Counted from the first letter of the stretch, positions 19,806 through 43,794 are shown. The stretch is DNA of 64,000 nt from a virus (IMGVR_UViG_3300006737_000017:1-64000); one strand, 5' to 3'. Program-made: numbers and translations. Notes: generated by a model not told the origin, from the letters alone.

Positions 19806-21567
<1,762 letters not shown>

Positions 21568-24409: not shown

Positions 24410-24583
24410 ATGAAATACAAAGAAAACAAACTAACATCGGTTAACGTTAACGATAATAATCGTAAAGAATTCAAGAAGCTTGCAATTGATGAAGAAATAA
24501 CATTCCAAAAGCTTGTTAATATAGCTTTGGAGTTATATATAACTGATGTGAAGTTTAGACGTCAAATAAACAAAAGGAGATAG
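24410..24583 (+). CDS. Ribbon-helix-helix (Arc/CopG-like) DNA-binding protein, 57 aa
   Basis: Short gene behind AAGGA. The product has a beta-strand LTSVNVNDNN, helix 1 RKEFKKLAIDEE and helix 2 TFQKLVNIALELYITD, the arrangement of a ribbon-helix-helix repressor; the strand residues would contact the DNA major groove as a dimer. It is the first gene of the sugar cluster, so it may control that operon or be a broader phage regulator. Start at 24410 preferred over in-frame ATG 24404 on ribosome-site spacing. Confidence 0.68.
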   Translation: MKYKENKLTSVNVNDNNRKEFKKLAIDEEITFQKLVNIALELYITDVKFRRQINKRR

Positions 24584-24588
24584 GTTAT

Positions 24589-26034
24589 ATGAAACTTCCA
24601 TCATTGAAGAAAGCAAAGAAAAAGTCTTACAAGAAAAAGATTTTATTATTATCTGATGATCTAAGGTTAAAGTCTGGTGTAGGGACTATGTCTAAGGAAA
24701 TCATTAGAGGAACATTACACAAATACGATTGGGTTCAAATAGGAGGAGCTCTAAATCACCCAGATGAAGGCAAAGGCTTAGTAGACCTTTCAGAAGAATT
24801 TCAAAAATCAACTGGTGTAGGTGATGCTTCAGTTAAAGTAATACCATGTGCAGGATATGGTAATCAGCAATTGTTAAGAGCAGTGATAAAAGATCATAAA
24901 CCAGATGTTATATGTCACTTTACTGATCCTAGATTTTGGGACTGGCTTTATCAAATGGAACATGAAATTAGACAAACTACTCCTATCACCTATCTTAATA
25001 TTTGGGACGATTTACCTTTCCCTCATTGGAATGAAAATGCATACGAATCTTGCGATTTGCTAATGGCAATTTCAAAGCAAACTTATAATATAAACAAGCA
25101 CGTTTGCCAAAGAAAACCAAGAGTAGAAGGTAAAGATTTATTCTACGTACAACATGGTATAGATGAAAATATTTTTAAGCCTATAGATAAATCAACAGAA
25201 GAATTTAAGAAATTTCAATCTGAAGTATTAGGTGGTAAAGAAAAAGATTTTATATTATTTTTTAATTCAAGAAATATTAGAAGAAAATCGCCATCTGATT
25301 TAATACTTGGTTATAGTAAATTCTGTGAACAATTGACAAAGGAACAAGCCGATAAATGCTTATTACTAATGCATACAGATGCAGTAGACCCTAATGGTAC
25401 AGATCTACCAGCTGTTATGAGAGCACTATCACCTAAATACGATGTTAGGTTTAGTACTCAAAAAATGGACGAGAAATTCTTAAACTATTTATATAATGTA
25501 GTAGATGTTACATGCAATCCTTCTTCAGCAGAAGGTTTTGGTTTATCTCATATGGAATCTCTGATGGCTGGTACTCCAACTATAACATCTGTCATTGGTG
25601 GTTTACAAGATCAAATGGGATTCAAAGTAAATGGAGAAGAATTCAGCGTTAAGCATTTATCAGCTGATATGCCTAGTAATTCTACAGGAGAGATATCTAC
25701 AGAACATGGAGAATGGACTTTACCTTTATGGCCTCAATTAAATTTACAAGGTTCACCAGCAACTCCCTATATATACGATTCTAAAAGTAGCATAAGTCAA
25801 ATAACAAATCAAATGAAAGTTTGGTATGATTTAGGACCAGAAGAAAGAAAAAGAAGAGGATTAGCTGGAAGGAATTGGGCTATTGAAAATGGCTTTAACC
25901 ATGTTGGTATGGCTAATGCATTCATTAAAGCAACAGAAGCTTGTCTTGAAAATTTTCAACCAAGAGCAAGTTATACATTAGAAAAAGTTGAAGTTAATCC
26001 AAAAGAAGTATATCCAGCAGGAGTTATATTATGA
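24589..26034 (+). CDS. Glycosyltransferase, GT4-like (GT-B fold)
   Basis: 481 aa. A Lys-rich start, then KKILLLSDDLRLKSGVGTMS (glycine-rich acceptor-domain loop), DVICHFTDPRFWDW, IPCAG, FYVQHGIDENIFKP, FILFFNSRNIRRKSPSDLI (donor-domain start) and CNPSSAEGFGLSHMESLMAG, the E-x-F-G-x-x-x-x-E nucleotide-sugar motif of GT4. Retaining transfer from an NDP-sugar. ATGA overlap with the next GT gene. Confidence 0.82.
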   Translation: MKLPSLKKAKKKSYKKKILLLSDDLRLKSGVGTMSKEIIRGTLHKYDWVQIGGALNHPDEGKGLVDLSEEFQKSTGVGDASVKVIPCAGYGNQQLLRAVIKDHKPDVICHFTDPRFWDWLYQMEHEIRQTTPITYLNIWDDLPFPHWNENAYESCDLLMAISKQTYNINKHVCQRKPRVEGKDLFYVQHGIDENIFKPIDKSTEEFKKFQSEVLGGKEKDFILFFNSRNIRRKSPSDLILGYSKFCEQLTKEQADKCLLLMHTDAVDPNGTDLPAVMRALSPKYDVRFSTQKMDEKFLNYLYNVVDVTCNPSSAEGFGLSHMESLMAGTPTITSVIGGLQDQMGFKVNGEEFSVKHLSADMPSNSTGEISTEHGEWTLPLWPQLNLQGSPATPYIYDSKSSISQITNQMKVWYDLGPEERKRRGLAGRNWAIENGFNHVGMANAFIKATEACLENFQPRASYTLEKVEVNPKEVYPAGVIL

Positions 26035-27299
26035 AACAAAATTTAGTTATTAGTTGCCCATCAACAAGTAGATCTGGTTACGGAGATCATGCTAGAGATT
26101 TAATTAGAAGTTTAATTTCTATGGACAAATTCAATGTTAGAATATTAGATCAAAGATGGGGAGTATGCCCACAGAACGCATTGACAGAAGAAGATGAAGA
26201 CATAAGCTCTAGAATTATTTGGGATGGGAAGTTATCACAAAAACCCGACGTTTGGATACAAGTTACTGTTCCCAATGAATTCCAAGCAGTAGGTGAATAT
26301 AATATAGGTATAACTGCTGGAATGGAAACTACACTTGTTGATCCAACATGGTTAGAAGGTTGCAACAGAATGGATAAAATCATAGTTCCATCTGAACATT
26401 CTAAAAATGTATTTGTACAATCTAAATATGATAAACATGATAAGAAGACTAACACAAAGACTGGAGAATTAAAACTTGAAGTTCCATGTGAAGTTCTATT
26501 TGAAGGGTCAGACATGAATATATTCAAAAAGACCAAAGATATACCAGTAACAGTAATAGAATCTATGAAAGAAGTAAAAGAAGAATTTTGTTTCTTAAAC
26601 GTTGGTCACTGGTTGCAAGGAGATTTTGGTCATGATAGAAAAGATGTTGGAGGAGTAATAAAAGTTTTCTGTGATACATTTAATGGTATAAGGAAAAAAC
26701 CAGCATTAATTATAAAAACTTCTGGTGCTACATATTCTATACAGGACAAACAACAAATTTTACATAAATTCAGAGCAGTAATGAGAACTGTAAAGAATTT
26801 AGATGTTAGCGTTTATTTATTGCATGGAGATATGAAGCCAGAAGAATTGAATGGTTTATATAATCACCCTAAAGTAAAAGCGATGGTTAGCTTTACTCAC
26901 GGCGAAGGATATGGAAGACCATTACAAGAATTTAGTATTACTGGTAAACCTACTATAGCACCTGGTTGGTCTGGTCAAGTAGATTTCCTATCGCAATATG
27001 GAGTATTATTGAAAGGTAAAGTACAACAGGTACACCCATCAGCTGCACAAGAAAAAATGATATTAAAAGAATCTGGTTGGTTTTACGTTGATGTAAATTA
27101 TGCAACGGCTGTATTTAAGGACGTCTACAAAAATTATAAAAAATATTTAGAAACTACTAGAAAGCAAACTCAATATATAAAAGAGAATTTTACATTAGAT
27201 TTAATGAAAGAAAAATTCAAAGCTATGATGGGATCTATACCAACAAAAGCCGAGAGAGTAGAATTTAATTTACCAAAATTGGAGAAACAAAATGCATAG
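26031..27299 (+). CDS. Glycosyltransferase, GT4-like (GT-B fold)
   Basis: 422 aa. CPSTSRSGYGDHARDLIRSL is the N-terminal acceptor loop, GITAGMETTLVDPTWLEGCN and KIIVPSEHSKNVF follow, and SFTHGEGYGRPLQEFSITGK carries the donor-binding E-G-x-G-x-P-x-x-E motif. Paralogue in general layout of the preceding GT but diverged. Coupled by ATGA upstream and a small overlap downstream. Confidence 0.82.
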   Translation: MKQNLVISCPSTSRSGYGDHARDLIRSLISMDKFNVRILDQRWGVCPQNALTEEDEDISSRIIWDGKLSQKPDVWIQVTVPNEFQAVGEYNIGITAGMETTLVDPTWLEGCNRMDKIIVPSEHSKNVFVQSKYDKHDKKTNTKTGELKLEVPCEVLFEGSDMNIFKKTKDIPVTVIESMKEVKEEFCFLNVGHWLQGDFGHDRKDVGGVIKVFCDTFNGIRKKPALIIKTSGATYSIQDKQQILHKFRAVMRTVKNLDVSVYLLHGDMKPEELNGLYNHPKVKAMVSFTHGEGYGRPLQEFSITGKPTIAPGWSGQVDFLSQYGVLLKGKVQQVHPSAAQEKMILKESGWFYVDVNYATAVFKDVYKNYKKYLETTRKQTQYIKENFTLDLMKEKFKAMMGSIPTKAERVEFNLPKLEKQNA

Positions 27300-27750: not shown

Positions 27751-28168
27751 GCATCGTACTAAACAGGGTAGAAAGTATCAAATATCTAAAGCTGGATTGC
27801 AGAAAGGAATGATAGTATCTTGTAGATACACGAATAAGAAAGGTCAATCAGAAAACAAGATGATAGTAATACTTAACCCTGGTTACAAGGGTAAAATACA
27901 TGCACTATCTTTATCCAGATTCAGTTCCAAAAAGTTTAACAAATTAGCTGAAACAGTTGGAATAAGAGTTATACCAAAGTATGAAACAAGAGGCTTAGAA
28001 ATTCCGAAGTTGGCAATGGACCAATCTTCAAATCGTTTTTATAGCGCTTACTTAAAAGATGTTAAAAGTGAATATAACGATGCTTATAGAACTTACTTTG
28101 CTAATAAACTTTCAGTTCCTTTTGTAATTGATTATAATTTTGATAAAAAAGATACACTATTATTATGA
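27734..28168 (+). CDS. Phage protein of unknown function with SH3/PemK-like segment (144 aa)
   Basis: Basic protein; GMIVSCRYTNKKGQSENKM followed by IVILNPGYKGKIHALSLS looks like a small beta-barrel, and the C-terminus (SVPFVIDYNFDKKDTLLL) is hydrophobic. Overlaps the previous gene by 17 nt and the next in ATGA. Function not recognised; position inside the sugar cluster may be incidental. Confidence 0.5.
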   Translation: MNYLSEHRTKQGRKYQISKAGLQKGMIVSCRYTNKKGQSENKMIVILNPGYKGKIHALSLSRFSSKKFNKLAETVGIRVIPKYETRGLEIPKLAMDQSSNRFYSAYLKDVKSEYNDAYRTYFANKLSVPFVIDYNFDKKDTLLL

Positions 28169-28593
28169 TAACAGGATTCACAGCAGGTAACTTTGATATA
28201 TTACATCCAGGTTACATAAAAACTTTCAAAGCAGCAAAAGAACATTGCGACAGATTTCTTGTATTTTTACAAAGAGATCCATCATTGCACAGGAAAAGTA
28301 AATACAAACCGATAATACCTTTGTATGATAGATATGAAACGCTAATGGCAATAAAATATATAGATGAGGTATATACATACCAAACGGAAGAGGAATTATA
28401 CGAATTAATAAAGTTTTGGAAACCTCAAATTAGAATACTAGGAGAAGATTACATAGGAAAACCTTTTACTGGAGAAGATCTTCCACCAAAGGTAATATAC
28501 ACAACTAGATCTCACGACTGGTCAACTACTAAATTGAAGGACTTGATTACAAAACAGACAATCAAACAAAACCCGGAGATACTTAAAAAATGA
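28165..28593 (+). CDS. Cytidylyltransferase-like nucleotidyltransferase (TagD/RfaE type)
   Basis: 142 aa. GFTAGNFDILHPGYIKTF contains the G-x-F-D-x-x-H nucleotide motif; RYETLMAIKYIDEVYTY and the signature TTRSHDWSTTKLKDLI (R-x-H-D-x-S-T-T variant of R-T-x-G-I-S-T-T) follow. It should activate a phosphorylated sugar or polyol (for example glycerol-3-phosphate or a heptose phosphate) with CTP or ATP. ATGA overlaps on both sides. Confidence 0.8.
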   Translation: MITGFTAGNFDILHPGYIKTFKAAKEHCDRFLVFLQRDPSLHRKSKYKPIIPLYDRYETLMAIKYIDEVYTYQTEEELYELIKFWKPQIRILGEDYIGKPFTGEDLPPKVIYTTRSHDWSTTKLKDLITKQTIKQNPEILKK

Positions 28594-29219
28594 AAATAAC
28601 CTACGCAATTACAGTATGCAATGAGCATAAAGAAATAGAAAAGCTATTAACTTTTATATTCGAAAACAAAAGACTTGAAGATCAAGTAGTAGTTCAAATG
28701 GACAAAGACAACGTTACAGACAAAGTTTGGGATGTATGCGAAAGATTTGAAAATAGACAAGCAACTGAATACAGCTTGATACAGCATTCATTAAACAAGA
28801 ACTTTGCAGAATATAAAAATCATCTAAATAAAAATTGTTCTGGTGATTGGATATTTCAAATAGACGCAGATGAAATACCAAACCCATATTTAATTGAAGC
28901 TTTACCTTTCATACTAGAAGCTAACCAGGATACTGAAGCTTTTTGGGTACCTAGAGTAAATACTGTTGAAGGTATTACTGATGCTCATATTGCAAAGTGG
29001 GGCTGGAGATTAGATGAAAATAATTGGGTTAACTTCCCTGATTGGCAAATGAGAATATATAGAAACAAAGAAGAAATATATTGGATTAAACCTGTACATG
29101 AACAATTGAAAGGTTATACTAAATTTGCTAATTTACCAGCAGATGAAAAATTTGCATTATATCATCCAAAGAAAATTGGAAGACAAGAAAAGCAAAATGA
29201 ATTTTACGAGACTATCTAA
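28590..29219 (+). CDS. Glycosyltransferase, GT2-like (GT-A fold)
   Basis: 209 aa. ITYAITVCNEHKEIEKLL is the GT2 entry strand; GDWIFQIDADEIPN holds the D-x-D motif for metal and NDP-sugar; WQMRIYRNKEEIYW and VHEQLKGY lie in the acceptor half, as in LpsA/KdtX-like enzymes. Coupled to the neighbours. Confidence 0.8.
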   Translation: MKITYAITVCNEHKEIEKLLTFIFENKRLEDQVVVQMDKDNVTDKVWDVCERFENRQATEYSLIQHSLNKNFAEYKNHLNKNCSGDWIFQIDADEIPNPYLIEALPFILEANQDTEAFWVPRVNTVEGITDAHIAKWGWRLDENNWVNFPDWQMRIYRNKEEIYWIKPVHEQLKGYTKFANLPADEKFALYHPKKIGRQEKQNEFYETI

Positions 29220-29803
29220 TGAAAATTCTAATCTATGGTTCAGCTCATTTAACAAGTGAGACTTGTAAAGTATTAAAAGACCATTACGATTTAGTTGGTC
29301 ATATACCATCTGTAAACCCAGTTATAGCTGGAGATATGGAATTACCAATAGTAACTGAATACGTAGATCACGATATAAAATTATCTTTGCAATATAATGT
29401 TAAAATGCAAAACATAGAAAACGCATACAATGTTCATACAGGTTTATTACCTCTATGGGGCGGACAAGATATTTTATACCATACGATAAAAGAAAAAGCA
29501 AAAAGACAAGGGTTAACTTTTCACAAGATGTCTAAAGACTTTGACTATGGAAATATAATTTCAAAGACAACTTACCCAGTTTTTGAAGAAGATGACATGA
29601 TAGATTTATACTCTAAAATGACTGCTATATTTCCAGGCTTTGTATTAAGTTCTCTAAAACTTTTAGAAAACTTAGGAAATGAAAATGTAAACAAATGCCA
29701 AAAGAAAAGGCCTAGATTATTCAAAAGGGGTAAAATAGATTCATCAGACATGAATGTTTATAAAGAAACTTTACCAATATTGAGAAAGCTTTATGAAAAA
29801 TAA
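29219..29803 (+). CDS. Sugar N-formyltransferase-like (formyl-transferase N-terminal domain)
   Basis: 194 aa. NVHTGLLPLWGGQDILYHTI matches the N-x-H-x(S/T)-L-L-P-x-(Y/W)-x-G catalytic motif of 10-formyl-THF-dependent transferases, and GLTFHKMSKDFDYGNIIS gives the D-x-G-x-I(I) Asp. The usual Asn and His are kept; Asp is in DYGNII. The short length fits sugar N-formyltransferases (VioF/QdtF type) lacking the tRNA-binding C-domain. With FdtA and the DegT aminotransferase in the same cluster, a formylated 3-amino-3,6-dideoxy sugar is a coherent product. Confidence 0.72.
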   Translation: MKILIYGSAHLTSETCKVLKDHYDLVGHIPSVNPVIAGDMELPIVTEYVDHDIKLSLQYNVKMQNIENAYNVHTGLLPLWGGQDILYHTIKEKAKRQGLTFHKMSKDFDYGNIISKTTYPVFEEDDMIDLYSKMTAIFPGFVLSSLKLLENLGNENVNKCQKKRPRLFKRGKIDSSDMNVYKETLPILRKLYEK

Positions 29804-30491
29804 ATCTTGTAATGTAATAGTTTATTGGTCTGGTGAAAGGCGAAGATCTAATGGAACTGGTTATGCAATAAAACTATTAAAGTATAATATAGAAATTGCA
29901 AAGACTACAAATGGTGGATGCCCTTATGATACTATAATAGTTAACAATGAAAATGCAAATGCAACTGATGAAGTTAAAGAATTATTAAAAAGTATAGATG
30001 GACAGAAAACTTTTAATGGTAAATTTATAGTTTTGAATAGACCTAACGTAGGAATTTCAATGGGAGCTTACTCTCATGCATACGAAAAGCTAAGAGAGGA
30101 ATATCAATGGTGGCACTTTACTGAAGACGATTACATCTATAACGTAAAAGATTGGTACAAAGAAACAAAGAAATTTTATAACAGTAAAGAAAACGTTGGT
30201 GCAGTTGCAACTCTTGGTTCAAATGGTAATCATATAGATGGAGGTATTGGATTATACAAAAGAGAGATACTAGATTTATATTATAAAGATCACGGTAGAT
30301 TATGCTGGAAAGATACTAATGCTTATGACTTTTCAAATGAAATAGGTTTTTCAAATGTATATTATAATATGGGCTATGGCTTATTGCAAATACCAAAGTG
30401 TTATTATATAAGATGGGGAAATGCTCATGGACAAGCACAAAAAGAATCTACTCACTTTGGAAAAGAAGCACCTTATATAGGAGAATGGTAA
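29793..30491 (+). CDS. Putative GT-A fold glycosyltransferase
   Basis: 232 aa. IVYWSGERRRSNGTGYAIKL, NRPNVGISMGAYSHAYEKL and WWHFTEDDYIYNVKDW (E-D-D in the D-x-D position) followed by VATLGSNGNHIDGGIGLYKR resemble GT2/rhamnan-type transferases. Overlaps the previous gene by 11 nt and ends in TAATG with the oxygenase gene. Confidence 0.62.
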   Translation: MKNKSCNVIVYWSGERRRSNGTGYAIKLLKYNIEIAKTTNGGCPYDTIIVNNENANATDEVKELLKSIDGQKTFNGKFIVLNRPNVGISMGAYSHAYEKLREEYQWWHFTEDDYIYNVKDWYKETKKFYNSKENVGAVATLGSNGNHIDGGIGLYKREILDLYYKDHGRLCWKDTNAYDFSNEIGFSNVYYNMGYGLLQIPKCYYIRWGNAHGQAQKESTHFGKEAPYIGEW

Positions 30492-31141
30492 TGAATAAAA
30501 TAAAATACGATACAAAAAAATATAATTTTATAGAATGTTTTCAAAAAATATTCGAATGCGAAGATTTACAAAATGTACATAGAGATTGGAATTTAGCAAG
30601 AGAATATGAATTATTGGATAGAGTAGAAATAGACCAAGATACAGTTTATCATAAACACTTTTACGACAATATAGGTAATACAGATTACTATAATATTTAC
30701 AAAAAATTTATAAGTGAAGTTGTATCTAATTTATTTGATGAAGAAATATTATATCAAAAGATACCAACGTTTAGAATCCATCAACCTGGCAACCTTGCTG
30801 TAGCAGCTTATCATAGAGATAGAGATTATAATCATTCTACTTATGAAAAGAATTTCTTTTTACCATTAACCGATGCATTTGGAAATAATACTATCTGGGC
30901 TGAGACTGTTGAAGGTAAAGGTGATTATCAACCTATGGAAGCTAAGCTTGGAGAATTTATTATGTGGGACGGTCCAAACTTAGAGCATGGAAACAAAACA
31001 AACGATACACGATTTTCAAGAATTAGTATAGATTTTAGAATATTACCGTTATCTAAATATGTAAAAACAGATTTGGAAAGCACTTCTATACAAACAAAAA
31101 TGAACTTAAACGAATATTGGGAAAAAGTGAGTAAGATATGA
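30491..31141 (+). CDS. 2-oxoglutarate/Fe(II)-dependent oxygenase (PhyH/StrG-like)
   Basis: Start at ATG 30491 (TAATG overlap); an in-frame ATG at 30398 would lie far inside the preceding gene. 216 aa. IPTFRIHQPGNLAVAAYHRD gives H-x-D (HRD), FFLPLTDAFGNNTIW the central strand, WDGPNLEHGNKTNDTRFSRI the distal His and the Arg that binds 2-oxoglutarate. It would hydroxylate a sugar or sugar-nucleotide intermediate. Coupled to the C-methyltransferase gene by ATGA. Confidence 0.75.
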   Translation: MNKIKYDTKKYNFIECFQKIFECEDLQNVHRDWNLAREYELLDRVEIDQDTVYHKHFYDNIGNTDYYNIYKKFISEVVSNLFDEEILYQKIPTFRIHQPGNLAVAAYHRDRDYNHSTYEKNFFLPLTDAFGNNTIWAETVEGKGDYQPMEAKLGEFIMWDGPNLEHGNKTNDTRFSRISIDFRILPLSKYVKTDLESTSIQTKMNLNEYWEKVSKI

Positions 31142-32316
31142 AAAAAGAATTTTTAGATTTAGGTAATCAACCTATTGCAAATAGTTTCTTAGAAGTTATA
31201 CCTGGTGGCTATGGCTATGCAGGAGAAGACTTCTTTTACAATTTAAGAATGGGTTTTGATTGTGAAACATGTTTAGTAACACAAATGGAATATGTAGATC
31301 CTCCAAAAATGTTCAATGAGCATTATGTATATAGAGGGTCAATGTCTAAAACTATGCAAAAACATTTCAAGGAGTTTTCAAAAACAATTAGTAAAGAATT
31401 AAAAGTTTTAGAAATTGGAAGTAATGATGGGGTATTCATTAAAAACTTTTCAACTAAAAATGCAATTGGTGTTGAACCTTGTGCTAATTTTGCAAAAGAA
31501 ACGCAAGATATGGGATACACAACCTATCCTGAATTTTGGACTCAAGATTTAGCTAATACTATTAATGCAGAATTTGGAAAACAAGATGTTATATTTTCAG
31601 CAAATTGTATTTCTCATATACCAGACTTAGATGAAACATTCAAAGCTGTAGAATCCCTGTTATCAGAAGATGGTGTATTTATATTTGAAGACCCTTCACT
31701 AGCTCAAATGATTAATAATAATTCTTATGATCAAATATACGATGAGCATGTACATATATTATCAGTTACAGCATTGGATAATATCTTAAAAAGAAATGGA
31801 TTGCAAATAGTATTAGTAGACAATCTTTCTGTTCACGGGGGATCCAATAGAATTTATGCTAAAAGAATTGGAAATAAAATTGGAGATTCTTATTATAGCA
31901 ATTTAACTTATGAAAGAATATTAGGTCTAGATAACATAGAAACTTTCAAAAGGTTTGCTAAAAGAGTAGAACAATCTAAAAACGATTTAATTGAAATTTT
32001 ATCTAACTGTAAAAAGAATAATAAAAAAGTTATTAGTTATGGCGCAACCTCTAAGTCTACAACTGTATTTAATTATTGTGGAATAACGCCTTCTCTAATT
32101 CCATATATAACAGATACAACGCCAGAAAAGCAAAATACTTTATCTCCAGGAGTTCATATTCCAGTTTATGAACCATCAAGTAAAATACCATCAGATGTAG
32201 ATTACGTTTTCCTAGGAGCTTGGAATTTCCTAACTGAGATTGAAGAAAAAGAAACAGAGTTTAGAGAAAGAGGTGGTAAATTTATAACGCATATACCAAA
32301 CGTTAGAGTAATATAA
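31138..32316 (+). CDS. SAM-dependent sugar C-methyltransferase (TylC3/NovU-like)
   Basis: 392 aa, full three-part layout. N-terminal region with FDCETCLVTQ (zinc-type Cys pair, 'putative zinc binding' domain reduced), central SAM-binding KVLEIGSNDGVFIKNF, and the family hallmark YDQIYDEHVHILSVTALDN then VDNLSVHGGSNRIYAKR. The C-terminal domain has KVISYGATSKSTTVFNYCG. It methylates C-3 of dTDP-4-keto-deoxysugars. Last gene of its operon; P9 follows. Confidence 0.88.
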   Translation: MKKEFLDLGNQPIANSFLEVIPGGYGYAGEDFFYNLRMGFDCETCLVTQMEYVDPPKMFNEHYVYRGSMSKTMQKHFKEFSKTISKELKVLEIGSNDGVFIKNFSTKNAIGVEPCANFAKETQDMGYTTYPEFWTQDLANTINAEFGKQDVIFSANCISHIPDLDETFKAVESLLSEDGVFIFEDPSLAQMINNNSYDQIYDEHVHILSVTALDNILKRNGLQIVLVDNLSVHGGSNRIYAKRIGNKIGDSYYSNLTYERILGLDNIETFKRFAKRVEQSKNDLIEILSNCKKNNKKVISYGATSKSTTVFNYCGITPSLIPYITDTTPEKQNTLSPGVHIPVYEPSSKIPSDVDYVFLGAWNFLTEIEEKETEFRERGGKFITHIPNVRVI

Positions 32317-32348
32317 TTTGGATATGTCAAAAAAAATGATTATATTAG
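32317..32348 (+). promoter_or_regulatory. Promoter P9, predicted leaderless
   Basis: TTTGGATATGTC from 32317, TATATTAG at 32341-32348, spacer 20 nt; ATG at 32353 after TATT. It splits the sugar island into two transcription units. Confidence 0.75.
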
Positions 32349-32352
32349 TATT

Positions 32353-32763: not shown

Positions 32764-33176
32764 CAATAGAAGACGTTAAGTTCTTTAATGCAAGAACTAT
32801 GGTTGAACCAGATGGAAATCTTGTACCGATTGAAGGTGGTACCGATGTACCATTTGATATCAAAAGAGTTTTCTATGTATATGGTGTAAAGAATCAAGAT
32901 GACAGAGGTAAACATTCTCATTTTGAAACTAAACAAGTACTATATTGTTTACATGGAAAAGTAGAAGTATTAGTTCACGATGGTGTAAGAAAAAGAAAGT
33001 ATCTATTAGAATCACCTCAACAAGGATTATACATACCAGAGATGATATGGGATGAGCAAGTATATTTAACAGAAGATACAGTAATGTTAGTTTTAGCAAA
33101 TACGGAATACAATCCATCAGATTACATAAACGACTTTGAAGAATTCAAAAAAATAAAAGGAGTAACAAATGAGTAA
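32742..33176 (+). CDS. fdtA: dTDP-4-keto-6-deoxyglucose 3,4-ketoisomerase (FdtA/QdtA-like)
   Basis: 144 aa. KRVFYVYGVKNQDDRGKHSH, ETKQVLYCLHGKVEVLVHDG and GLYIPEMIWDEQVYLTEDTV then VLANTEYNPSDYINDFEEF are characteristic of FdtA/WxcM C-terminal-type isomerases. It moves the keto group from C-4 to C-3, the step before C-3 transamination by a DegT-family enzyme such as the one at 34516. Confidence 0.88.
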   Translation: MENRKQITIEDVKFFNARTMVEPDGNLVPIEGGTDVPFDIKRVFYVYGVKNQDDRGKHSHFETKQVLYCLHGKVEVLVHDGVRKRKYLLESPQQGLYIPEMIWDEQVYLTEDTVMLVLANTEYNPSDYINDFEEFKKIKGVTNE

Positions 33177-33813
33177 GTGTAAAATAAAACATTTATCTAT
33201 AGAAAATTTTATACCTTCAGCAGCATTAGCAAGAGCAGCAGCTGAAAGTTTTAATGATAATATGGATTGGGTAAAATATGGAGCAGGCGATAATCAAATA
33301 CAATACTGTTCAAAGCTTGGTAGAGAAAAATTACCAACTGCTGCAAGATTATGTTTGAATTATATTGCAACAAACTTTGATCCCAACATAGCTTTCAATG
33401 GCTTAACAACAAACGCATTCCCAGACTTAGGTCATTATGGAGGAGGAATGATGTTAACACCCAATTCCAATGGTGAAGGGGGTTTTCTTGGAATGCATAT
33501 AGACGCAGAAGTTCACGGTTTACATCAAGATTGGAAAAGAGAATATAGTGCAATACTTTGTTTGTCTGAAGTACATGACACATCTTTTGATGTAAGATTG
33601 CATGATGGAGAAAATCATACCAGAATTCCATACAGATTTAATACATTAAACGTATTCAAATGTAGCGATTATTCATGGCACGGTTTTCCTGAAATTACTA
33701 AAGGCATGGATAGAAAAACAGTTGGAATGATGTTCTGGTCTAAAATGACTGAAGAAGATAAAAAGAAAGAAAAAGTTAAAGCAAGATTTAACGACAATTT
33801 GAAATTTGACTAA
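33169..33813 (+). CDS. 2OG-Fe(II) oxygenase, prolyl-4-hydroxylase-like
   Basis: 214 aa. GGFLGMHIDAEVHGL has the H-x-D pair, REYSAILCLSE the core strand, HTRIPYRFNTLNVFKCSDYS then WHGFPEI the distal His; RKTVGMMFW may position 2-oxoglutarate. The layout is common in T4-like phages. Substrate may be protein or sugar. Overlaps neighbours on both sides. Confidence 0.76.
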   Translation: MSKCKIKHLSIENFIPSAALARAAAESFNDNMDWVKYGAGDNQIQYCSKLGREKLPTAARLCLNYIATNFDPNIAFNGLTTNAFPDLGHYGGGMMLTPNSNGEGGFLGMHIDAEVHGLHQDWKREYSAILCLSEVHDTSFDVRLHDGENHTRIPYRFNTLNVFKCSDYSWHGFPEITKGMDRKTVGMMFWSKMTEEDKKKEKVKARFNDNLKFD

Positions 33814-34532
33814 TGAAGAAAATCTTAATATCTGGTGGTGAAAGTAAATTTGCAAAGTCTTTAATATCAGAAAATACTAAATTTGATATTAAAGCATTAA
33901 GCAGATCACAGATGAATGTGACAAACTTTTCAAGTATAAAGTCAAGCCTAGGAATTACTAGACCAGATTATTTTATTCACACTGCTGCACTATCTAGGCC
34001 AATGATATTACATAAAGAAAAACCTGATGTTAGTATAAAATCTAATATAATAGGTACTGCAAATTGCGTTCTAGCATGCATGGAAACTAATGTAAAATTC
34101 ATATACATTTCTACAGATTTTGTATATCCTGGAACAGATGGAAACTATTGCGAAGACTCTGCTCTGTTACCAATAAATGAATATGCTTGGTCAAAACTTG
34201 GTGGTGAATGCTCTGTAAAACTTTATGATAACTCGTTAATAATAAGAACAGCAATGGTTGAAAATCCTTATCCTCACAAAAAAGCTTTTGTTGATGTTAA
34301 GAAAAGTTTAATAGAATACAAAGAAGCAGCAAGATTAACTTTAGAATTACTTGATCAGAGTGGTATTGTAAACATTGGTAAGGAATCAGATACAATCTAC
34401 AATCATGTAAAAAAGATTGAAAAGAATATTGGTAAAATATCTAGAAAAGATATTACTAATTTGGATATTGCTACAGATAGCAGTATGAATATTGACAAAT
34501 TAAAAAGGATACTAAATGATAAATCTATTTAA
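33813..34532 (+). CDS. dTDP-4-dehydrorhamnose reductase-like SDR (RmlD family)
   Basis: 239 aa. KKILISGGESKFAKSL is a degenerate Rossmann G-x-x-G-x-x-(G/A) loop, DYFIHTAALSRPMI and FIYISTDFVYPGTDG follow, and the catalytic Y-x3-K is EYAWSKLGGE. Shorter than RmlD (~290 aa). Reduces a 4-keto sugar nucleotide or acts as an epimerase/reductase. It overlaps the DegT gene by 17 nt. Confidence 0.75.
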   Translation: MKKILISGGESKFAKSLISENTKFDIKALSRSQMNVTNFSSIKSSLGITRPDYFIHTAALSRPMILHKEKPDVSIKSNIIGTANCVLACMETNVKFIYISTDFVYPGTDGNYCEDSALLPINEYAWSKLGGECSVKLYDNSLIIRTAMVENPYPHKKAFVDVKKSLIEYKEAARLTLELLDQSGIVNIGKESDTIYNHVKKIEKNIGKISRKDITNLDIATDSSMNIDKLKRILNDKSI

Positions 34533-35427
34533 TATAGAAAATTACACTATAGACACTGGAAAGTTTAATCATATACTACACGACAATTTAGTAAATGAAT
34601 TTGAACAGAAGATAGCAGATTTTGTTGGTGCAAAATATGCATGCGGTGTTAGCAGTGCAACAAATGCAATATTCTTAGCATTATTAAATAAGAATACAGA
34701 AATAGAAATACCTTCTATGATTCCACCAGTTGTTGCTAATGCTATTATAACTTCTGGGAATAAAGTTAAATTTACAGACAACGTAGAATGGGTTGGCGAT
34801 TCTTATGTATTGCATAATTTTGAAGATTATAAAATAATAGATTCAGCTCAAAAATTAGAAAAAGACCAATTTAAGAAAGAAGCTAATGATGAAGATTTAA
34901 TGATGTTTTCATTTTATCCAACAAAACCAGTTGGAAGTATAGATGGTGGTATGATAGTAAGCAACGATAAAGAAAAGATTGATTGGTTTAGAGAAGCAAC
35001 ATTAAATGGAATGTCTTTTGCAAAAAACAATTGGGAAAGAAAAATAAATTTTCCAGGATATAAAATGTATTTGAATTCTGTTCAAGCTTTTGTTGCAAAT
35101 GAAAATTTCAAAAAATATGAAAACAAATTAAAAACTCTTAAAGAACTTAGAGACATATATAATTTTTGGTTTAAGTTAAATAACACAAGTAATCATTTAT
35201 ACAGAATTGAAGTAGAAGATAATATTAAAGCAATGGCTAAATTGAAAAAGAAAGGTTTAGTAACTGGTATTCATTATTCATGTCTACATAACCATGAAGT
35301 TTACGGTTCTAATATAAAATGCCCTGAGTCAGAGGAATTAGCTAAACATACTTTAAGTATACCGTTTCACGAAGCAATGACGGTTGCAGATGTAAATGAT
35401 GTAATAAGAATAATAAGTAAATTGTAA
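34516..35427 (+). CDS. DegT/DnrJ/EryC1-family sugar aminotransferase
   Basis: 303 aa, shorter than usual (~370). FVGAKYACGVSSATNAIFLA is the PLP phosphate-binding region, IIDSAQKLEK holds the PLP-N1 Asp (D-S-A-Q), and FSFYPTKPVGSIDGGMIVS has the Schiff-base Lys (YPTK). The C-terminal region KKKGLVTGIHYSCLHNHEVY binds the sugar. Next to fdtA it should make a 3-amino-3,6-dideoxyhexose (Fuc3N/Qui3N type). One-nt TAATG junction with the next gene. Confidence 0.82.
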   Translation: MINLFNIENYTIDTGKFNHILHDNLVNEFEQKIADFVGAKYACGVSSATNAIFLALLNKNTEIEIPSMIPPVVANAIITSGNKVKFTDNVEWVGDSYVLHNFEDYKIIDSAQKLEKDQFKKEANDEDLMMFSFYPTKPVGSIDGGMIVSNDKEKIDWFREATLNGMSFAKNNWERKINFPGYKMYLNSVQAFVANENFKKYENKLKTLKELRDIYNFWFKLNNTSNHLYRIEVEDNIKAMAKLKKKGLVTGIHYSCLHNHEVYGSNIKCPESEELAKHTLSIPFHEAMTVADVNDVIRIISKL

Positions 35428-36311
35428 TGCCAGTATTTTTTAGATTAAATGAAAAAGGTTTTAGCTGGGCTGGAGAGGTAACAAACCTCGGCTTTTCAAG
35501 TAAAGATCCTAGATATATACCAAAGGAATATTTAGAAAAGGGAGATTTTCTTTTGTTTAGAATGTCTAATGGTTTTGGAGATTGGGGAATCTTATCTGCA
35601 ATGCCTAGATTGCTAAAAGAAAAATATCCTAATTGTAAAGTTTATTTACCAAGTGAAAAACTAATAAAAGAGTTTTATACGAAAGATATAGAACTTTGGA
35701 ATCACTGGCCAAACCCTGAAAAAAATGTTGAAAGGGTATACAAGAATAATCCTTATGTTGATGGTTTCATTGATAAGGTTGAAAATGAAGTATTCCATGA
35801 TCATTATAGGATATACAATGAAGACGATATAAATGAACCCTTGATAAACCAAGTTCTGAAGTTTTGGAAATTCTCAGAAAACGAATTGGAAGATAACCAA
35901 CCAGAATTCTATTGGACAGAAGAGGAAATGGAACAAGGAGATTCATTGATAAAGAAATACTTTGGAGAAAAAGAATTTTGCGGTTTAATTCTAAGTAATA
36001 CAGATATAGGATCAGACACTTACAAAGGGGAATCTGAAGAGGCTTTACAAAGCATTCTAAAAGAACATTCAAAATATAAATTTGTTTATTATGGAGATAA
36101 AACGCCTTATGACTTTATAAAAGTTGGATTAAATCTAAAAGACATAGAAGCTTCTATTAGAGTTCAATTATATATAAGATCTAAAGCAAAAATAAATTTA
36201 GGATATAGCAGTTCTATGTACGACGTTTTACCAAGATACGTAGATATAACATACATACCAGTTAGACAAGGTATGAAATCTAATACAGTTAAAGGGATAA
36301 AATACTTATGA
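35427..36311 (+). CDS. Putative GT-B glycosyltransferase (GT9/heptosyltransferase-like)
   Basis: 294 aa. RMSNGFGDWGILSAMPRLLK resembles the G-x-G-D entry loop of GT9 enzymes, followed by YPNCKVYLPSEKLI; the C-terminal half has KYKFVYYGDKTPYDF and KINLGYSSSMYDVLPRYVDI, as in the donor-binding part. No further specific residue recognised. Coupled in the operon by short overlaps. Confidence 0.55.
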   Translation: MPVFFRLNEKGFSWAGEVTNLGFSSKDPRYIPKEYLEKGDFLLFRMSNGFGDWGILSAMPRLLKEKYPNCKVYLPSEKLIKEFYTKDIELWNHWPNPEKNVERVYKNNPYVDGFIDKVENEVFHDHYRIYNEDDINEPLINQVLKFWKFSENELEDNQPEFYWTEEEMEQGDSLIKKYFGEKEFCGLILSNTDIGSDTYKGESEEALQSILKEHSKYKFVYYGDKTPYDFIKVGLNLKDIEASIRVQLYIRSKAKINLGYSSSMYDVLPRYVDITYIPVRQGMKSNTVKGIKYL

Positions 36312-37768
36312 TACTATTAAAAGATTTGAAAGAAAAATATAAAAATGACGAAGTAATTGTAAACCAATTGAAATTACAATTTGGAGACTATTCAGAATTA
36401 GAAAAAGAGTTTGACAATTTCTGGGATAAAGGTTTCATGGAAGAAATTATTACTAAATCTTCAAATGGTAATGGTCATATAGCTGGAGCAGGTCCAGTAG
36501 ATTATAATGAAGGTAAAATTATATATCTATATATTAGAACTATAAAACCTAAATCTGTATTGGAAATAGGTCATGCAGCTGGATGCTCTTCTGTAGTAAT
36601 TGCAAAAGCTTTAGAAACTAATGGTTCTGGTACATTACACACTTGCGATAAGTTTTCCAATGCAAATGATCCAAACCTAATACCATCTTTTGTTAAGTAT
36701 ATAAAAAGCGGAATCATAAAAGAATATGGAGACATAGACGCACTTGATCTAATACCTAAACTAGAAGAATCATTCGATATAGTATTTACAGATGCAAGCC
36801 ATGAATCAGATTTTTGCTTTCCAGTAGCAAAACTTTTATATGAAAAGTATCCAGAAGCTTTACACTTATATCATGAATGGAGCTTTTCTCCATACTCTAG
36901 TAAAGAAGCTCAGAATTATATAAGCATAAAAGAAAATTTGAATCATCAAGAAATGGCAGAGAGAGAAGCTTTCGAAGAAACTTTTCCAATAAAAGATTAT
37001 GATCATTTTGGTTTTTATGGTAGCTGCGGACTTGGAGTTACTATGAAAAGAAATAAACCAAGACAGATTAAAGTTTATTACAGACTATCGAATCAACAAG
37101 CTGGTATAAATAAAAATAAAATTTCAAATGCTAGTAAAAAAACTTGTTTACAAAATTGCATAAATAAATTCGGAAAAGAAAATATAACCATAATCGGAGA
37201 CAATCTAAATATAGAGCATATAGAATTAGTAAGAAATTTAGGAGTAAGATTTATAGAAGTTTCAAATGGAAATGGTTCTGGTACTTTTAGAGATGCATTA
37301 AATTTAGCAATAAAAGAGAATTTAGAATCTGATTTTGTATATTTATTAGAGGATGACTTCTTACACAAAGAAGAATCTAAAGGGTTATTAATTGAAGCAT
37401 TAAATTCTTATGATAGTTATGTTACTTTATACGATCACCCTGACAAATATATAAATAAAGAAAACGGAGGTAATCCCTATATAGAAGAAAGGGGAGAAGT
37501 TACAAGATTAGTGAAAACAGAAAATGTACATTGGAAAATTACAAATTCTACAGTTATGTCATTTGCAGCTAGGGTTTCTAGATTAAAACACGACAAACCT
37601 TTATTAGAAAAATATTCTAGTAATAGTATAACTAATTCTTTTGGGTTCTTTACAGAATTATCAAAAGAGAAAGGAGTTGCAGCATTAAGCTCAGTTCCAG
37701 GTTTTAGTACTCACTGCGAAACTGCATGGCTTTCACCATTTACAAATTGGGAGGAAATAAATGATTAG
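36308..37768 (+). CDS. Fusion: class I SAM methyltransferase + GT-A-like glycosyltransferase domain
   Basis: 486 aa in two parts. Residues ~1-245: SVLEIGHAAGCSSVVIAKAL (SAM-binding), FDIVFTDASHESDFCFPVAK (Methyltransf_24-like acidic strand). Residues ~255-486: RQIKVYYRLSNQQAGINK, NLGVRFIEVSNGNGSGTFRD, FVYLLEDDFLHKEESKGLLI (E-D-D metal motif) and a His at the end (FSTHCETAWL), like a GT-A fold. Both active-site regions look intact, so one polypeptide could add and methylate a sugar. Confidence 0.68.
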   Translation: MILLKDLKEKYKNDEVIVNQLKLQFGDYSELEKEFDNFWDKGFMEEIITKSSNGNGHIAGAGPVDYNEGKIIYLYIRTIKPKSVLEIGHAAGCSSVVIAKALETNGSGTLHTCDKFSNANDPNLIPSFVKYIKSGIIKEYGDIDALDLIPKLEESFDIVFTDASHESDFCFPVAKLLYEKYPEALHLYHEWSFSPYSSKEAQNYISIKENLNHQEMAEREAFEETFPIKDYDHFGFYGSCGLGVTMKRNKPRQIKVYYRLSNQQAGINKNKISNASKKTCLQNCINKFGKENITIIGDNLNIEHIELVRNLGVRFIEVSNGNGSGTFRDALNLAIKENLESDFVYLLEDDFLHKEESKGLLIEALNSYDSYVTLYDHPDKYINKENGGNPYIEERGEVTRLVKTENVHWKITNSTVMSFAARVSRLKHDKPLLEKYSSNSITNSFGFFTELSKEKGVAALSSVPGFSTHCETAWLSPFTNWEEIND

Positions 37769-38549
37769 TTTAATTATACCAAGTTATAGGAATCCAAAAT
37801 GTTTAGATATATGTTTAGAATCTGCTTTATTGGGTCAAAAATATAGAAATGAAATTATTTGCATAATAGATGGTTATGTAGAAGAATCTTCAGAAATAAT
37901 AAAAAAATATGAAAATGACGTTAGCTTTATAGAAAGCCCTGAAAATATGGGAATGCAATATTCTTTGAATCTAGGAGTTTGGAATGCTTCATCCGATAAA
38001 GTTCTCATAGTAAACGACGACAATGTTTTATGTGCTGATTGGGATGCAATACTAGAAAGCGATTATCATGAAGATATAATACTTACACCTAATCAAATTG
38101 AAAAATATCCTAGTATTTTTAACTTTGAAACAGAAGACTTTGGCACTCCAGAAGATTTTGATTTAGACAATTTTATTACTTCTGAACCGCAATTTAGAAA
38201 AGATCATCTTACAAGAGATGGAGGAATATTCCCACTATTAATATCAAAGAAAAAGTATATGATGGTAGGAGGTTTTGACGATTTATATCCATCACCATTC
38301 GTTTGCGATTGGGACTTCTTTTTGAAATGTGAATTAGCAGGTATGAAAACCTTAAGGTCTAGAAAATTAAATTTCTATCATTTTGGTTCTGTCGCTACTA
38401 AAAATGGTAAAGAGGGACAAAGATTTACAGAAAGCGAAAGTGAAGCAAACGAGTTATATAAATATAAATGGGGTTTTGGAATGATAAAGAACAAGGATAA
38501 CACCCATTCACCAAAGGGTAACAAAGTAAAAGGGATAAACTATGAATAA
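37761..38549 (+). CDS. Glycosyltransferase family 2
   Basis: 262 aa. ISLIIPSYRNPKCLDICLES, FIESPENMGMQYSLNLGV, KVLIVNDDNVLCADWDA (D-D-N as D-x-D), MVGGFDDLYPSPFVCDWDFF (G-G-F-D-E/D region) and YHFGSVATK are all typical of GT2 inverting transferases. Overlaps the epimerase gene by 8 nt. Confidence 0.87.
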   Translation: MISLIIPSYRNPKCLDICLESALLGQKYRNEIICIIDGYVEESSEIIKKYENDVSFIESPENMGMQYSLNLGVWNASSDKVLIVNDDNVLCADWDAILESDYHEDIILTPNQIEKYPSIFNFETEDFGTPEDFDLDNFITSEPQFRKDHLTRDGGIFPLLISKKKYMMVGGFDDLYPSPFVCDWDFFLKCELAGMKTLRSRKLNFYHFGSVATKNGKEGQRFTESESEANELYKYKWGFGMIKNKDNTHSPKGNKVKGINYE

Positions 38550-39549
38550 AACTATTTTAGTAACAGGAGTAGCTGGACTTTTAGGTTCTAGGCTAGCAGA
38601 CTGGATTGTAAAAAATACAGATTACAAAGTAATAGGGATTGACGATTTATCTGGCGGTTATATTGAAAATTTACCAGAGGATGTTGAATTATATAAGTTC
38701 GATATAAAAGAGCTAGACAGAGTTAAAGATTTATTCAAAACACATAAACCTGAAATAGTATATCATTTTGCAGCTTATGCAGCAGAAGGTCTATCTCCAT
38801 TTATTAGAAAGTTTAATTACGAGAATAATTTAATATCTTCTACTAATTTAATTACTTGTAGTATTGAACACAGTGTAAAGAGATTTGTATTTGCAAGTTC
38901 AATGTCTGTATATGGTAATAAATATAAACCACCATTCCATGAAGATCTACAGCAATGTCCTATTGATCCTTATGGTATTGCTAAGTATGGTGTAGAGATG
39001 GATCTGAAAATAGCTTATGAACAACATGGTTTACCTTATACAATTGTAAGACCTCACAATTTCTACGGTCAGAATCAAAACATATGGGACAAGTATAGAA
39101 ATGTATTAGGAATTTGGATGTATCAAATAATCAATGGAATGCAGCCAACTATATTTGGAGATGGCGAACAAAAAAGAGCATTTAGTTATGTAGATGATTC
39201 TATAATTCCATTTTGGAATGCATCTCAAAGAGATGAATGTATTGGAGAAATTATTAATCTTGGTGGTATCAAAGAATATACTATCAATGAAGCTTGCGAT
39301 ATATTATTAAAAGTCACCGGCACCCCCCTTACAAAAAAATACTTGGAAGCGCGACATGAAGCTAAGCATGCTTGGTCAACATGGGAAAAATCCCAACAAC
39401 TATTAGATTTCAAACATGAAATAGATTTGGAAGAAGGATTAACTAAAATGTGGAAGTGGGCTCAAACGCAACCAAACAGAAAAAGATTCTTTTGGGGAGA
39501 TTACGAATTAAATAAAGGTATTTACGATTATTGGAAAACAGAAAAATGA
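38542..39549 (+). CDS. NAD-dependent sugar epimerase/dehydratase (GalE-like, extended SDR)
   Basis: 335 aa. ILVTGVAGLLGSRLADWIV (G-x-x-G-x-x-G), VIGIDDLSGGYIENLP, VYHFAAYAAEGLSP, FVFASSMSVYG (Ser), PYGIAKYG (Y-x3-K) and IVRPHNFYGQNQN. Canonical length. Likely UDP-glucose/N-acetylglucosamine 4-epimerase type. The TGA overlaps the next ATG (ATGA). Confidence 0.86.
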   Translation: MNKTILVTGVAGLLGSRLADWIVKNTDYKVIGIDDLSGGYIENLPEDVELYKFDIKELDRVKDLFKTHKPEIVYHFAAYAAEGLSPFIRKFNYENNLISSTNLITCSIEHSVKRFVFASSMSVYGNKYKPPFHEDLQQCPIDPYGIAKYGVEMDLKIAYEQHGLPYTIVRPHNFYGQNQNIWDKYRNVLGIWMYQIINGMQPTIFGDGEQKRAFSYVDDSIIPFWNASQRDECIGEIINLGGIKEYTINEACDILLKVTGTPLTKKYLEARHEAKHAWSTWEKSQQLLDFKHEIDLEEGLTKMWKWAQTQPNRKRFFWGDYELNKGIYDYWKTEK

Positions 39550-40370
39550 AAACATTAGGTATTATAGGTCAAGGGTTTGTAGGGACTGCAGTCTTTGAAG
39601 GGTTAAAAGAGCATTACAATATAGAAACATTTGATATCGCAAAAAATTCAACATGTAAATCATTAGGTGAATTATTCGAAAAATCTGAGGTTATATTTTT
39701 ATGCTTACCTACACCAATGGATAGCGAAGGTTCTTGTCACTTAGGAATTATAGAACCAGTTCTAGAAGAATTAAATTCTATAGGAAATAAAATAATTATT
39801 GTTAAATCTACAATCCCACCGGGAACAACTGAAAAGTGGAATGATAGATATGAAAATTTAAGTATTGTATTTAATCCAGAATTTTTAACAGAAGCAAATT
39901 CAATAGAAGATTTCAAAAATCAAAATAGAATCATTATTGGTGGACCAAGACCTGCATCAACAAAAGTAAGAAGAATATTCAAAAAAGCATTTCCAAGAGT
40001 AGCAATTATAAAAACAAGCTCAACGATTGCAGAAATGGTTAAGTATTTTACAAATTCTTTTCTAGCAACAAAAGTTTCTTTTGCAAATGAAATGTATCAG
40101 ATTTGTAATGGATTAGATATTGATTACGATAAAGTAATAGAGTATGCTCAATATGATAATAGAATAGGTAATTCTCATTTAGAAGTTCCAGGACCTGATG
40201 GAGATTTTGGTTATGGTGGGCATTGCTTTCCTAAAGATGTTAGAGCATTAATAAATGTTGCAGAGAAATTGGGTATAGATCCTAAGATGTTAACTGCAAC
40301 AGATACAAAGAACAACCAAGTCAGAACTAATTTTGATTGGAACAAACAAAAAGGAAGAGCAGTAATATAA
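39546..40370 (+). CDS. UDP-glucose/GDP-mannose dehydrogenase-like, lacking the C-terminal domain
   Basis: Start at ATG 39546 (ATGA overlap); an upstream TTG at 39531 is unlikely. 274 aa. KTLGIIGQGFVGTAVFEGL (NAD loop), FLCLPTPMDSEG, KSTIPPGTTEKW, NPEFLTEANSI, EMVKYFTNSFLATKVSFANE and the catalytic GYGGHCFPKD. The family is ~430 aa; the NDP-sugar-binding C-terminal domain is absent here, as the protein stops ~45 residues after the Cys motif. It may act on another substrate or need a partner. Confidence 0.82.
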   Translation: MKTLGIIGQGFVGTAVFEGLKEHYNIETFDIAKNSTCKSLGELFEKSEVIFLCLPTPMDSEGSCHLGIIEPVLEELNSIGNKIIIVKSTIPPGTTEKWNDRYENLSIVFNPEFLTEANSIEDFKNQNRIIIGGPRPASTKVRRIFKKAFPRVAIIKTSSTIAEMVKYFTNSFLATKVSFANEMYQICNGLDIDYDKVIEYAQYDNRIGNSHLEVPGPDGDFGYGGHCFPKDVRALINVAEKLGIDPKMLTATDTKNNQVRTNFDWNKQKGRAVI

Positions 40371-40612
40371 TGCAATATTTTATTTTATTTCCAGATGATA
40401 AAGAAAATGAAGCTACTTTCGAAAGTAATCTATTGGGTGAAAGTTCATTCAAAACGTTTTGGGGAGGAGCAGGTTTGAAAAAGCTAATGTGGATGGTAGA
40501 CAAGACACCAGAGCTTTTACCATTAGTTAAAATAAAAAACGATAAAGGCAAACAATTAGAAGTATTAGACTTTCTAGAAGAAATTAAAAAATTAAAGATT
40601 AAGGTAGATTAA
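40370..40612 (+). CDS. Conserved small phage protein (80 aa)
   Basis: Start at ATG 40370 (TAATG). MQYFILFPDDKENEATFESN, then GGAGLKKLMWMVDKTPELLP and a Lys-rich tail. I associate this FPDD / FWxGAGL pattern with small proteins of other T4-like phages. Function unknown; it closes the sugar operon. Confidence 0.6.
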   Translation: MQYFILFPDDKENEATFESNLLGESSFKTFWGGAGLKKLMWMVDKTPELLPLVKIKNDKGKQLEVLDFLEEIKKLKIKVD

Positions 40613-43644: not shown

Positions 43645-43794
43645 ATGATAAATTGGATAAACGGTTTTGATGCCGGAAATAAAAAGGAAAAGTACTATCT
43701 AGAATTTAGATTAGGAACTTTTACAGTATTAGAATTAAAATGGGAATCTAAGAAGTTTAGATTTATGATATTTAACTTGGGATTTGAAATATGA
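43645..43794 (+). CDS. Small protein (49 aa) preceding the T9SS cargo gene
   Basis: ATG behind AAGGGAAAA; ends TGA overlapping the next ATG (ATGA). MINWINGFDAGNKKEKYYLE, then FRLGTFTVLELKWESKKFRF. Beta-rich and basic. The tight coupling to the T9SS-type gene supports reality; function unknown. Confidence 0.45.
   Translation: MINWINGFDAGNKKEKYYLEFRLGTFTVLELKWESKKFRFMIFNLGFEI

Follow-up and report, generated by a model that had tools for sequence, protein, structure and literature searches.

The viral record IMGVR_UViG_3300006737_000017 from IMG/VR (138,299 bases, of which bases 1-64000 form the window analysed here) carries an island of sugar genes, and six of these (31138-35427) form a cassette that recurred in the same order in dozens of other uncultured viruses. 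Its members are a sugar C-methyltransferase (CMT), an RmlC-like cupin, an FdtA-like ketoisomerase, an Fe(II)/2-oxoglutarate (2OG) oxygenase, an RmlD-like short-chain dehydrogenase/reductase (SDR) and a DegT aminotransferase. About 40 distinct viral contigs carry the set in complete or almost complete form. Our preferred, still tentative, reading is that the cassette would start from dTDP-4-keto-6-deoxyglucose supplied by the host and yield a dTDP-linked, C-methyl-branched 3-amino-3,6-dideoxyhexose, for attachment to an acceptor by the island glycosyltransferases (GTs).

IMG/VR was searched with FdtA, the 2OG oxygenase, DegT and CMT, and the neighbourhoods were re-annotated with hidden Markov models (HMMs) built from the loci. 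Linkage was counted in 46 clusters seeded with CMT (grouped at 95% identity, with sufficient flanking sequence) and, for the DegT side, in 55 DegT clusters; most viral contigs are fragments, the clusters are related by descent, and such counts depend on the chosen seeds and thresholds. All six core genes were found in 17 of the 46 CMT clusters. FdtA was present in 42 of them, DegT in 39, the RmlD-like SDR in 37, the cupin in 36 and the 2OG oxygenase in 26. FdtA mostly lay inside the CMT block, directly ahead of the position taken here by the oxygenase (hereafter the slot). The DegT clusters contained FdtA in 50/55 and CMT in 27/55 cases, and 21/55 displayed FdtA and DegT without the CMT group. 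Since FdtA and DegT often occurred without CMT and CMT seldom without them, FdtA-DegT looks like a common viral 3-amino-sugar pair onto which the CMT group was added. The almost constant company of FdtA and DegT is at odds with the original prediction, made from the sequence of the window, which regarded CMT as an optional decorator.

CMT was the most informative member. It aligned over its full length (residues 4-392) with the sugar 3-C-methyltransferase 5t64 (271 bits, E 1e-79), which we take to be KijD1, and also matched 3ndi (TcaB9) and 4rv9 (D-mycarose 3-C-methyltransferase). Its YDEH motif (Y201-D-E-H204), presumably the catalytic Tyr/Glu/His, was invariant among the compared sequences. 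The enzyme is predicted to methylate C3 of a 4-keto (amino) sugar, and a full-length match to KijD1 and TcaB9 would argue against plain Fuc3N or Qui3N and in favour of an amino sugar with a C-branch.

FdtA and DegT were proposed from the start to form a 3-amino-3,6-dideoxyhexose module, and this was borne out. FdtA belongs to the ketoisomerase family, displayed an invariant HxH pair (H58, H60) and matched the FdtA structure 2pa7 at 103 bits. Two positions presumably separate FdtA from QdtA stereochemistry, with Arg/His in FdtA and Tyr/Arg in QdtA; the first was Arg in 2pa7 and in most bacterial relatives. The FdtA of the window has Asp at both (D24 and D104), so that the stereochemistry first assigned, that of Fuc3N or Qui3N, finds no backing there. 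DegT is a member of its family of fold type I, PLP-dependent aminotransferases, with Schiff-base K137 and D109-S-A-Q112, whose Asp and Gln lie at the PLP ring, invariant in 16 sequences; at 303 residues it is about 60 shorter than solved members. Its AlphaFold model (mean predicted local distance difference test, pLDDT, 88) matched ArnB, PseC, QdtB and WlaRG.

The RmlD-like SDR falls within the RmlD family and contains STDFVY and YxxxK; its sole NCBIfam match was RmlD (79.9 bits), under the 224-bit equivalog cut-off. The RmlC-like protein, only 136 residues long, scored just below the Pfam cut-off and thus does not qualify as RmlC on that count. Part of the earlier assignment is retained, for the family profile matched RmlC structures (34 bits, about 70 positions only; 17 bits against NovW) and the motifs WHKH and HGY..AL were conserved.

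The slot itself displayed an unusual pattern. The 2OG oxygenase of the window is a genuine family member, with invariant HxD (H110, D112), H171 and R182; its AlphaFold model (pLDDT 87) retrieved prolyl-4-hydroxylase/PHD2 folds in Foldseek. Relatives were found in 51 viral loci and none was confirmed when 84,980 genomes were scanned with sequence patterns, whose strictness makes the negative weak evidence; its close family, as found so far, is virus-only. In other viruses (for instance at L228:9977-10879) the slot was occupied by extended SDRs that together form a single discrete family, its members scoring 369 bits or above and other SDRs 121 or below. Among 46 CMT clusters that carry FdtA, 26 had only the oxygenase, 17 only the SDR, one both (L278) and two neither; one of the last two holds a relative of the protein at 30485 in the window and the other is cut by the contig end. 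The mutual exclusion was strong when relatedness was ignored (Fisher p = 1.6e-9). The CMT tree implied 10 or more exchanges, of which no fewer than 5 are forced by well-supported branches. In 6 phylogenetically independent pairs, oxygenase and SDR changed in opposite directions in about 5 and in the same direction in none (p = 0.06, a value limited by the number of pairs). An apparent association between FdtA residue D24 and the slot enzyme (p = 4e-8 in raw counts) failed under phylogeny control and therefore reflects subfamily history.

The closest solved relative of the slot SDR was 6vo6 (105 bits), which we take to be Cj1427; the SDR also resembles epimerases of the GalE type (galE 85 bits, heptose epimerase 88 bits). 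Cj1427 is a nucleotide-sugar C4-dehydrogenase that yields a 4-keto nucleotide sugar (PMC10680097). It acts on GDP-heptose in Campylobacter jejuni heptose biosynthesis, and its slot relative is found in sister viruses, not in the window. Since two unrelated families exchanged repeatedly at one position, a shared reaction converting an alcohol to a ketone is suggested, and we infer that this step would be the C4 oxidation allowing 3-C-methylation of a 3-amino sugar.

A precedent for the order of events exists in kijanose biosynthesis, where the aminotransferase KijD2 acts ahead of the methylation by KijD1 (PMC10951976). If C3 amination likewise precedes C3 methylation in the viruses, a ketone has to be restored at C4 of the sugar made by FdtA and DegT. 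FdtA would thus shift the ketone from C4 to C3 and DegT would transaminate C3, after which the slot enzyme, a 2OG oxygenase here and an unrelated SDR in relatives, would re-oxidise C4 to a ketone. CMT, of the KijD1/TcaB9 type, would then place a methyl group on C3; the RmlC-like cupin may epimerise beside the C4 ketone and the RmlD-like SDR would reduce C4. The formyltransferase, in the lineage of the window, may go on to N-formylate the amine. The stricter version of this scheme, a virus-specific dTDP-3-amino-3-C-methyl-3,6-dideoxyhexose pathway in which an Fe(II)/2OG oxygenase, or in sister viruses an NAD-dependent dehydrogenase, regenerates the C4 ketone, is decidedly speculative. We know of no description of 2OG-based C4-ketone regeneration or of its non-orthologous replacement by an SDR, and literature searches on comparable cassettes in viruses returned nothing relevant.

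Known C-branched amino sugars, kijanose among them, come from antibiotic glycosides of actinomycetes. The D-kijanose, D-tetronitrose and vancosamine-type pathways (KijD2-KijD1, TcaB9, EvaB-E) share with the cassette a 3-aminotransferase and a 3-C-methyltransferase acting on dTDP sugars, and EvaD/E are RmlC-like and RmlD-like enzymes as well. The viral set differs from them by its FdtA and its 2OG/SDR slot enzyme in place of a 2,3-dehydratase, none being recognised in the cassette. Likewise, the FdtA/FdtB and QdtA/QdtB modules of S-layer and O-antigen loci (dTDP-Fuc3N and dTDP-Qui3N) combine a 3,4-ketoisomerase, with the same HxH, and a DegT protein. In contrast to these modules, the viral DegT is shortened, both presumed specificity positions of FdtA are Asp, a C-methyltransferase and redox enzymes are added, and no N-acetyltransferase figures among the six core genes.

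Several observations weigh against a single C-branched amino sugar. The functions of the cassette enzymes are predictions from sequence, and the slot enzymes might instead act as an epimerase (the SDR) and as a hydroxylase (the 2OG oxygenase); the C-terminal part of RmlC is missing from the cupin, and the Asp/Asp pair of FdtA is neither of the FdtA nor of the QdtA type. Five CMT clusters had none of the other genes scored and some viruses carried CMT without FdtA or DegT, among them L217 with CMT, 2OG oxygenase and RmlD-like SDR; CMT can therefore serve elsewhere. Finally, on an Elusimicrobia contig from a metagenome-assembled genome (L100:409-1787), FdtA (43% identity, the closest bacterial relative found) overlapped a slot-type SDR (323 bits) and was followed by oxidoreductase and nonulosonate-like genes, with no CMT visible before the contig ends.

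A rival reading is a division of labour in which one 4-keto intermediate feeds two separate dTDP sugars, CMT, the RmlC-like cupin, the 2OG oxygenase or SDR and the RmlD-like SDR making a C-methyl 6-deoxy sugar (as in the noviose and virenose pathways) while FdtA and DegT make a plain 3-amino-3,6-dideoxyhexose. Such an arrangement would dispense with C4 re-oxidation. It agrees with the 21 DegT clusters having FdtA and DegT alone, with CMT-2OG-RmlD sets devoid of FdtA and DegT (L217, L074), and with the separate position of FdtA-DegT in two clusters, several kb away from CMT-RmlC-RmlD in L029 and at the opposite end in L096. Yet CMT was rarely seen without FdtA and DegT, FdtA usually sits within the CMT block, and KijD1 and TcaB9, the closest solved relatives of CMT, act on amino sugars. 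We consider two sugars a serious but unlikely alternative to the C-branched amino sugar.

The original prediction instead saw an N-formylated Fuc3N or Qui3N as the main product, the other enzymes being optional. The formyltransferase-like enzyme at 29219 on which it relied is indeed present: it belongs to the Formyl_trans_N family and its Asn-His-Asp motif (N71, H73, D109) was invariant in 4 sequences, as in the dTDP-sugar 3-N-formyltransferases WlaRD and QdtF. Two divergent relatives occur in DegT-bearing clusters, directly after a DegT gene in L005 and between DegT genes in L006, and the sole DegT of the record is the FdtA-linked one. The protein is only 194 residues long, however, and its match is limited to the central catalytic stretch; PDB matches were weak, the best being methionyl-tRNA formyltransferase (32 bits), with about 26 bits for WlaRD. 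Above all, it was found in 1/46 CMT clusters and is therefore an add-on outside the conserved cassette, whereas CMT is a highly conserved partner. Together with an FdtA having neither residue pair, this makes an N-formyl sugar as main product improbable.

Equally improbable is that the slot enzymes modify another position of a C-branched amino sugar by hydroxylation or epimerisation, the C4 ketone being kept through an unforeseen order of DegT or CMT action. 2OG oxygenases mostly hydroxylate, the slot SDR resembles GalE-type epimerases and the cluster L278 holds both slot enzymes; repeated exchange between unrelated families nevertheless fits oxidation of an alcohol better than hydroxylation. 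Decay of horizontally acquired sugar genes, which the shortened proteins (DegT, the 239-residue RmlD-like SDR, the RmlC-like cupin and a dehydrogenase devoid of its C-terminal domain) might evoke, is very improbable, as short forms and catalytic residues were kept across dozens of contigs, all frames were open, and the AlphaFold models of DegT and the 2OG oxygenase were confident.

The proposed substrate of the C-branched amino sugar pathway drew support from relatives. An RmlA gene adjoined the cassette in some of them (394 bits, curated cut-off 361), as did RmlB-like genes (313-338 bits, under the 365-bit cut-off), and RmlA-family genes were recorded in 10/49 cassette contigs. Since relatives carry both beside the cassette, dTDP-4-keto-6-deoxyglucose as input is supported. 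In the 138-kb record, no match to RmlA was obtained and no RmlB-type dehydratase was found, the GDP_Man_Dehyd matches being limited to the GalE-like and RmlD-like SDRs; the GalE-like protein at 38542 reached 95 bits against the 365-bit cut-off for dTDP-glucose 4,6-dehydratase. The record thus does not encode a complete dTDP pathway from glucose-1-phosphate, and the suggestion that RmlA and RmlB come from the host holds for this virus and not as a general rule.

Annotated phages contained no relatives at the nucleotide level. In tblastn searches of the same phages, FdtA relatives (32-38% identity) appeared in six records only, CMT matches ranged from 22 to 31%, the 2OG oxygenase gave only partial matches (33-35%) in two Streptomyces phages, both listed twice, and the formyltransferase none. 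Streptomyces phage Zuko (MN204493.1) has distant counterparts of two core enzymes at widely separated sites, gene 50 being FdtA-like and gene 109 2OG-oxygenase-like. The possibility that the cassette is common in bacteria was discarded, HMMs run against 395 genomes from a single phylum, sampled around a Prolixibacteraceae genome, having retrieved only distant proteins (70 bits at most) in 11 of them; four short loci fetched from this search contained no other cassette gene. Absence from bacteria thus refers to the strict pattern scan and one sampled phylum.

The whole island comprises 20 genes on the + strand (24589-40370), mostly overlapping by a few bases and otherwise abutting, between replication genes (UvsX, DnaB, ribonucleotide reductase, DNA polymerase, GroEL) and a later gene block (Table 1). 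Its description as a phage-borne nucleotide-sugar and glycosyltransfer island was confirmed in open reading frames, strands and Pfam and PHROGs matches. Nearly all enzymes first named were backed by these libraries, with catalytic motifs present, including the RmlD-like, C-methyltransferase, GalE-like, Ugd-like and cytidylyltransferase-like proteins. The count of about seven GTs was reduced to four (24589, 28590 and 37761 by Pfam, 26031 by PHROGs), the proteins at 29793 and 35427 and the C-terminal half of 36308 lacking such support. Similarly, of two announced 2OG oxygenases only that at 33169 was corroborated; the protein at 30485 matched nothing in Pfam, PHROGs or PDB. It and its relatives nonetheless share a conserved HxD...HGN...R pattern, and relatives occupy the slot after FdtA in L038 and L250. 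In the dehydrogenase at 39531-40370, the C-terminal domain (PF03720) was not found by Pfam search; the shortened protein retains a GGHCFPKD active-site segment. The reading frame at 40337-40612 displayed no known relation.

Table 1. Genes of the sugar island with their supporting matches (all coordinates in the window).
Predicted product	Position	Strand	Support
GT4-type glycosyltransferase	24589..26034	+	PF00534 42.6 bits; phrog_2170
GT-B-type glycosyltransferase	26031..27299	+	phrog_2170 66.8 bits
Cytidylyltransferase-like, HldE-C/TagD type	28165..28593	+	PF01467 55 bits; phrog_7878 115 bits
GT2 glycosyltransferase	28590..29219	+	PF00535 42 bits
Formyltransferase-like, add-on outside conserved cassette	29219..29803	+	PF00551 36.9 bits
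Possible glycosyltransferase	29793..30491	+	EDD motif; no Pfam or PHROG match
Second 2OG-oxygenase-like protein	30485..31141	+	Motif only
Sugar C-methyltransferase, KijD1/TcaB9/TylC3 type (cassette core)	31138..32316	+	PF08484 155 bits
Short RmlC-like cupin, putative epimerase (cassette core)	32353..32763	+	PF00908 26.1 bits (cut-off 27)
FdtA-like sugar 3,4-ketoisomerase (cassette core)	32742..33176	+	PF05523 147.9 bits (cut-off 23)
Fe(II)/2OG oxygenase, slot after FdtA (cassette core)	33169..33813	+	PF13640 32 bits
Short RmlD-like reductase, SDR (cassette core)	33813..34532	+	PF04321 84.2 bits (cut-off 27)
Short DegT/DnrJ/EryC1 aminotransferase (cassette core)	34516..35427	+	PF01041 115 bits
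Possible GT9-like protein	35427..36311	+	No Pfam or PHROG match; homologs in other viral islands
Methyltransferase domain plus C-terminal part without assigned function	36308..37768	+	PF13578 33 bits
GT2 glycosyltransferase	37761..38549	+	PF00535 52 bits
GalE-like extended SDR, epimerase type	38542..39549	+	PF01370 152 bits; best NCBIfam galE 125 bits, below cut-off
UDP-sugar 6-dehydrogenase-like (UDPG/GMD dehydrogenase)	39531..40370	+	PF00984 102 bits; PF03721 75 bits

Marine myophages (pelagimyophages, cyanomyophages) likewise possess a variable GT, lipopolysaccharide and sugar-enzyme island between replication and later modules. Its proposed role is to alter the host surface, and rfaE, UDP-glucose 6-dehydrogenase and GTs are named in its description, where the terms 'DegT' and 'aminotransferase' have 0 occurrences (PMC7029224). 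In other viral islands of the present set (L009, L031 and similar ones), carbamoyltransferases, FkbM methyltransferases and DUF5672 proteins lie close to the cassette.

Downstream of the island, positions 43791-47036 encode a 1082-residue protein with a signal-peptide-like N-terminus and a C-terminal type IX sorting domain (PF18962, 41-43 bits, cut-off 27), a Bacteroidota trait. It contains 14 GC[TMN]D-type repeats and 15 D[ST][AILVMT] motifs, many within the repeats, against 5.3 expected in shuffled sequences. The product seems destined to be exported by the cells of such bacteria, and a gene of this kind near the island suggests that this marine phage infects a Bacteroidota host. In the next gene (47059-48144), inspection by eye pointed to a lipobox-like signal, LIASC, and to a sequence that may resemble an outer-membrane barrel. 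GroEL (20095-21567; phrog_5725, 482 bits) was 53% identical to that of the Flavobacterium phages vB_FspM_immuto, and equally similar GroELs occur elsewhere; Shine-Dalgarno use (22/54) was not decisive. Among 49 other cassette contigs none had the sorting domain, so host ranges differ or contigs are partial; the cyanophage marker psbA was found in 0/49 cassette contigs.

As to the acceptor, a search of the 138-kb record for a Wzx-type flippase (PF01943) was negative, and a self-contained surface polysaccharide pathway is therefore not evident. A thymidylate-synthase-like protein (16031-16780; phrog_160, 79 bits) displayed Asp197, invariant in 8 sequences, at the dUMP-specific Asn position, as is the rule for dCMP hydroxymethylases; it may be an enzyme of that sort, and DNA modification would then be feasible. 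A slightly likelier acceptor than DNA or virion proteins seems to be the Bacteroidota host surface, or proteins located there.

If the C-branched amino sugar pathway is real, a compact six-gene set present in dozens of aquatic viruses would give phages an elaborate nucleotide-sugar chemistry that is their own. The repeated exchange of 2OG oxygenase and SDR would amount to a natural experiment, indicating that both enzymes carry out one reaction, probably an oxidation, and the cassette offers a defined, testable set of enzymes.

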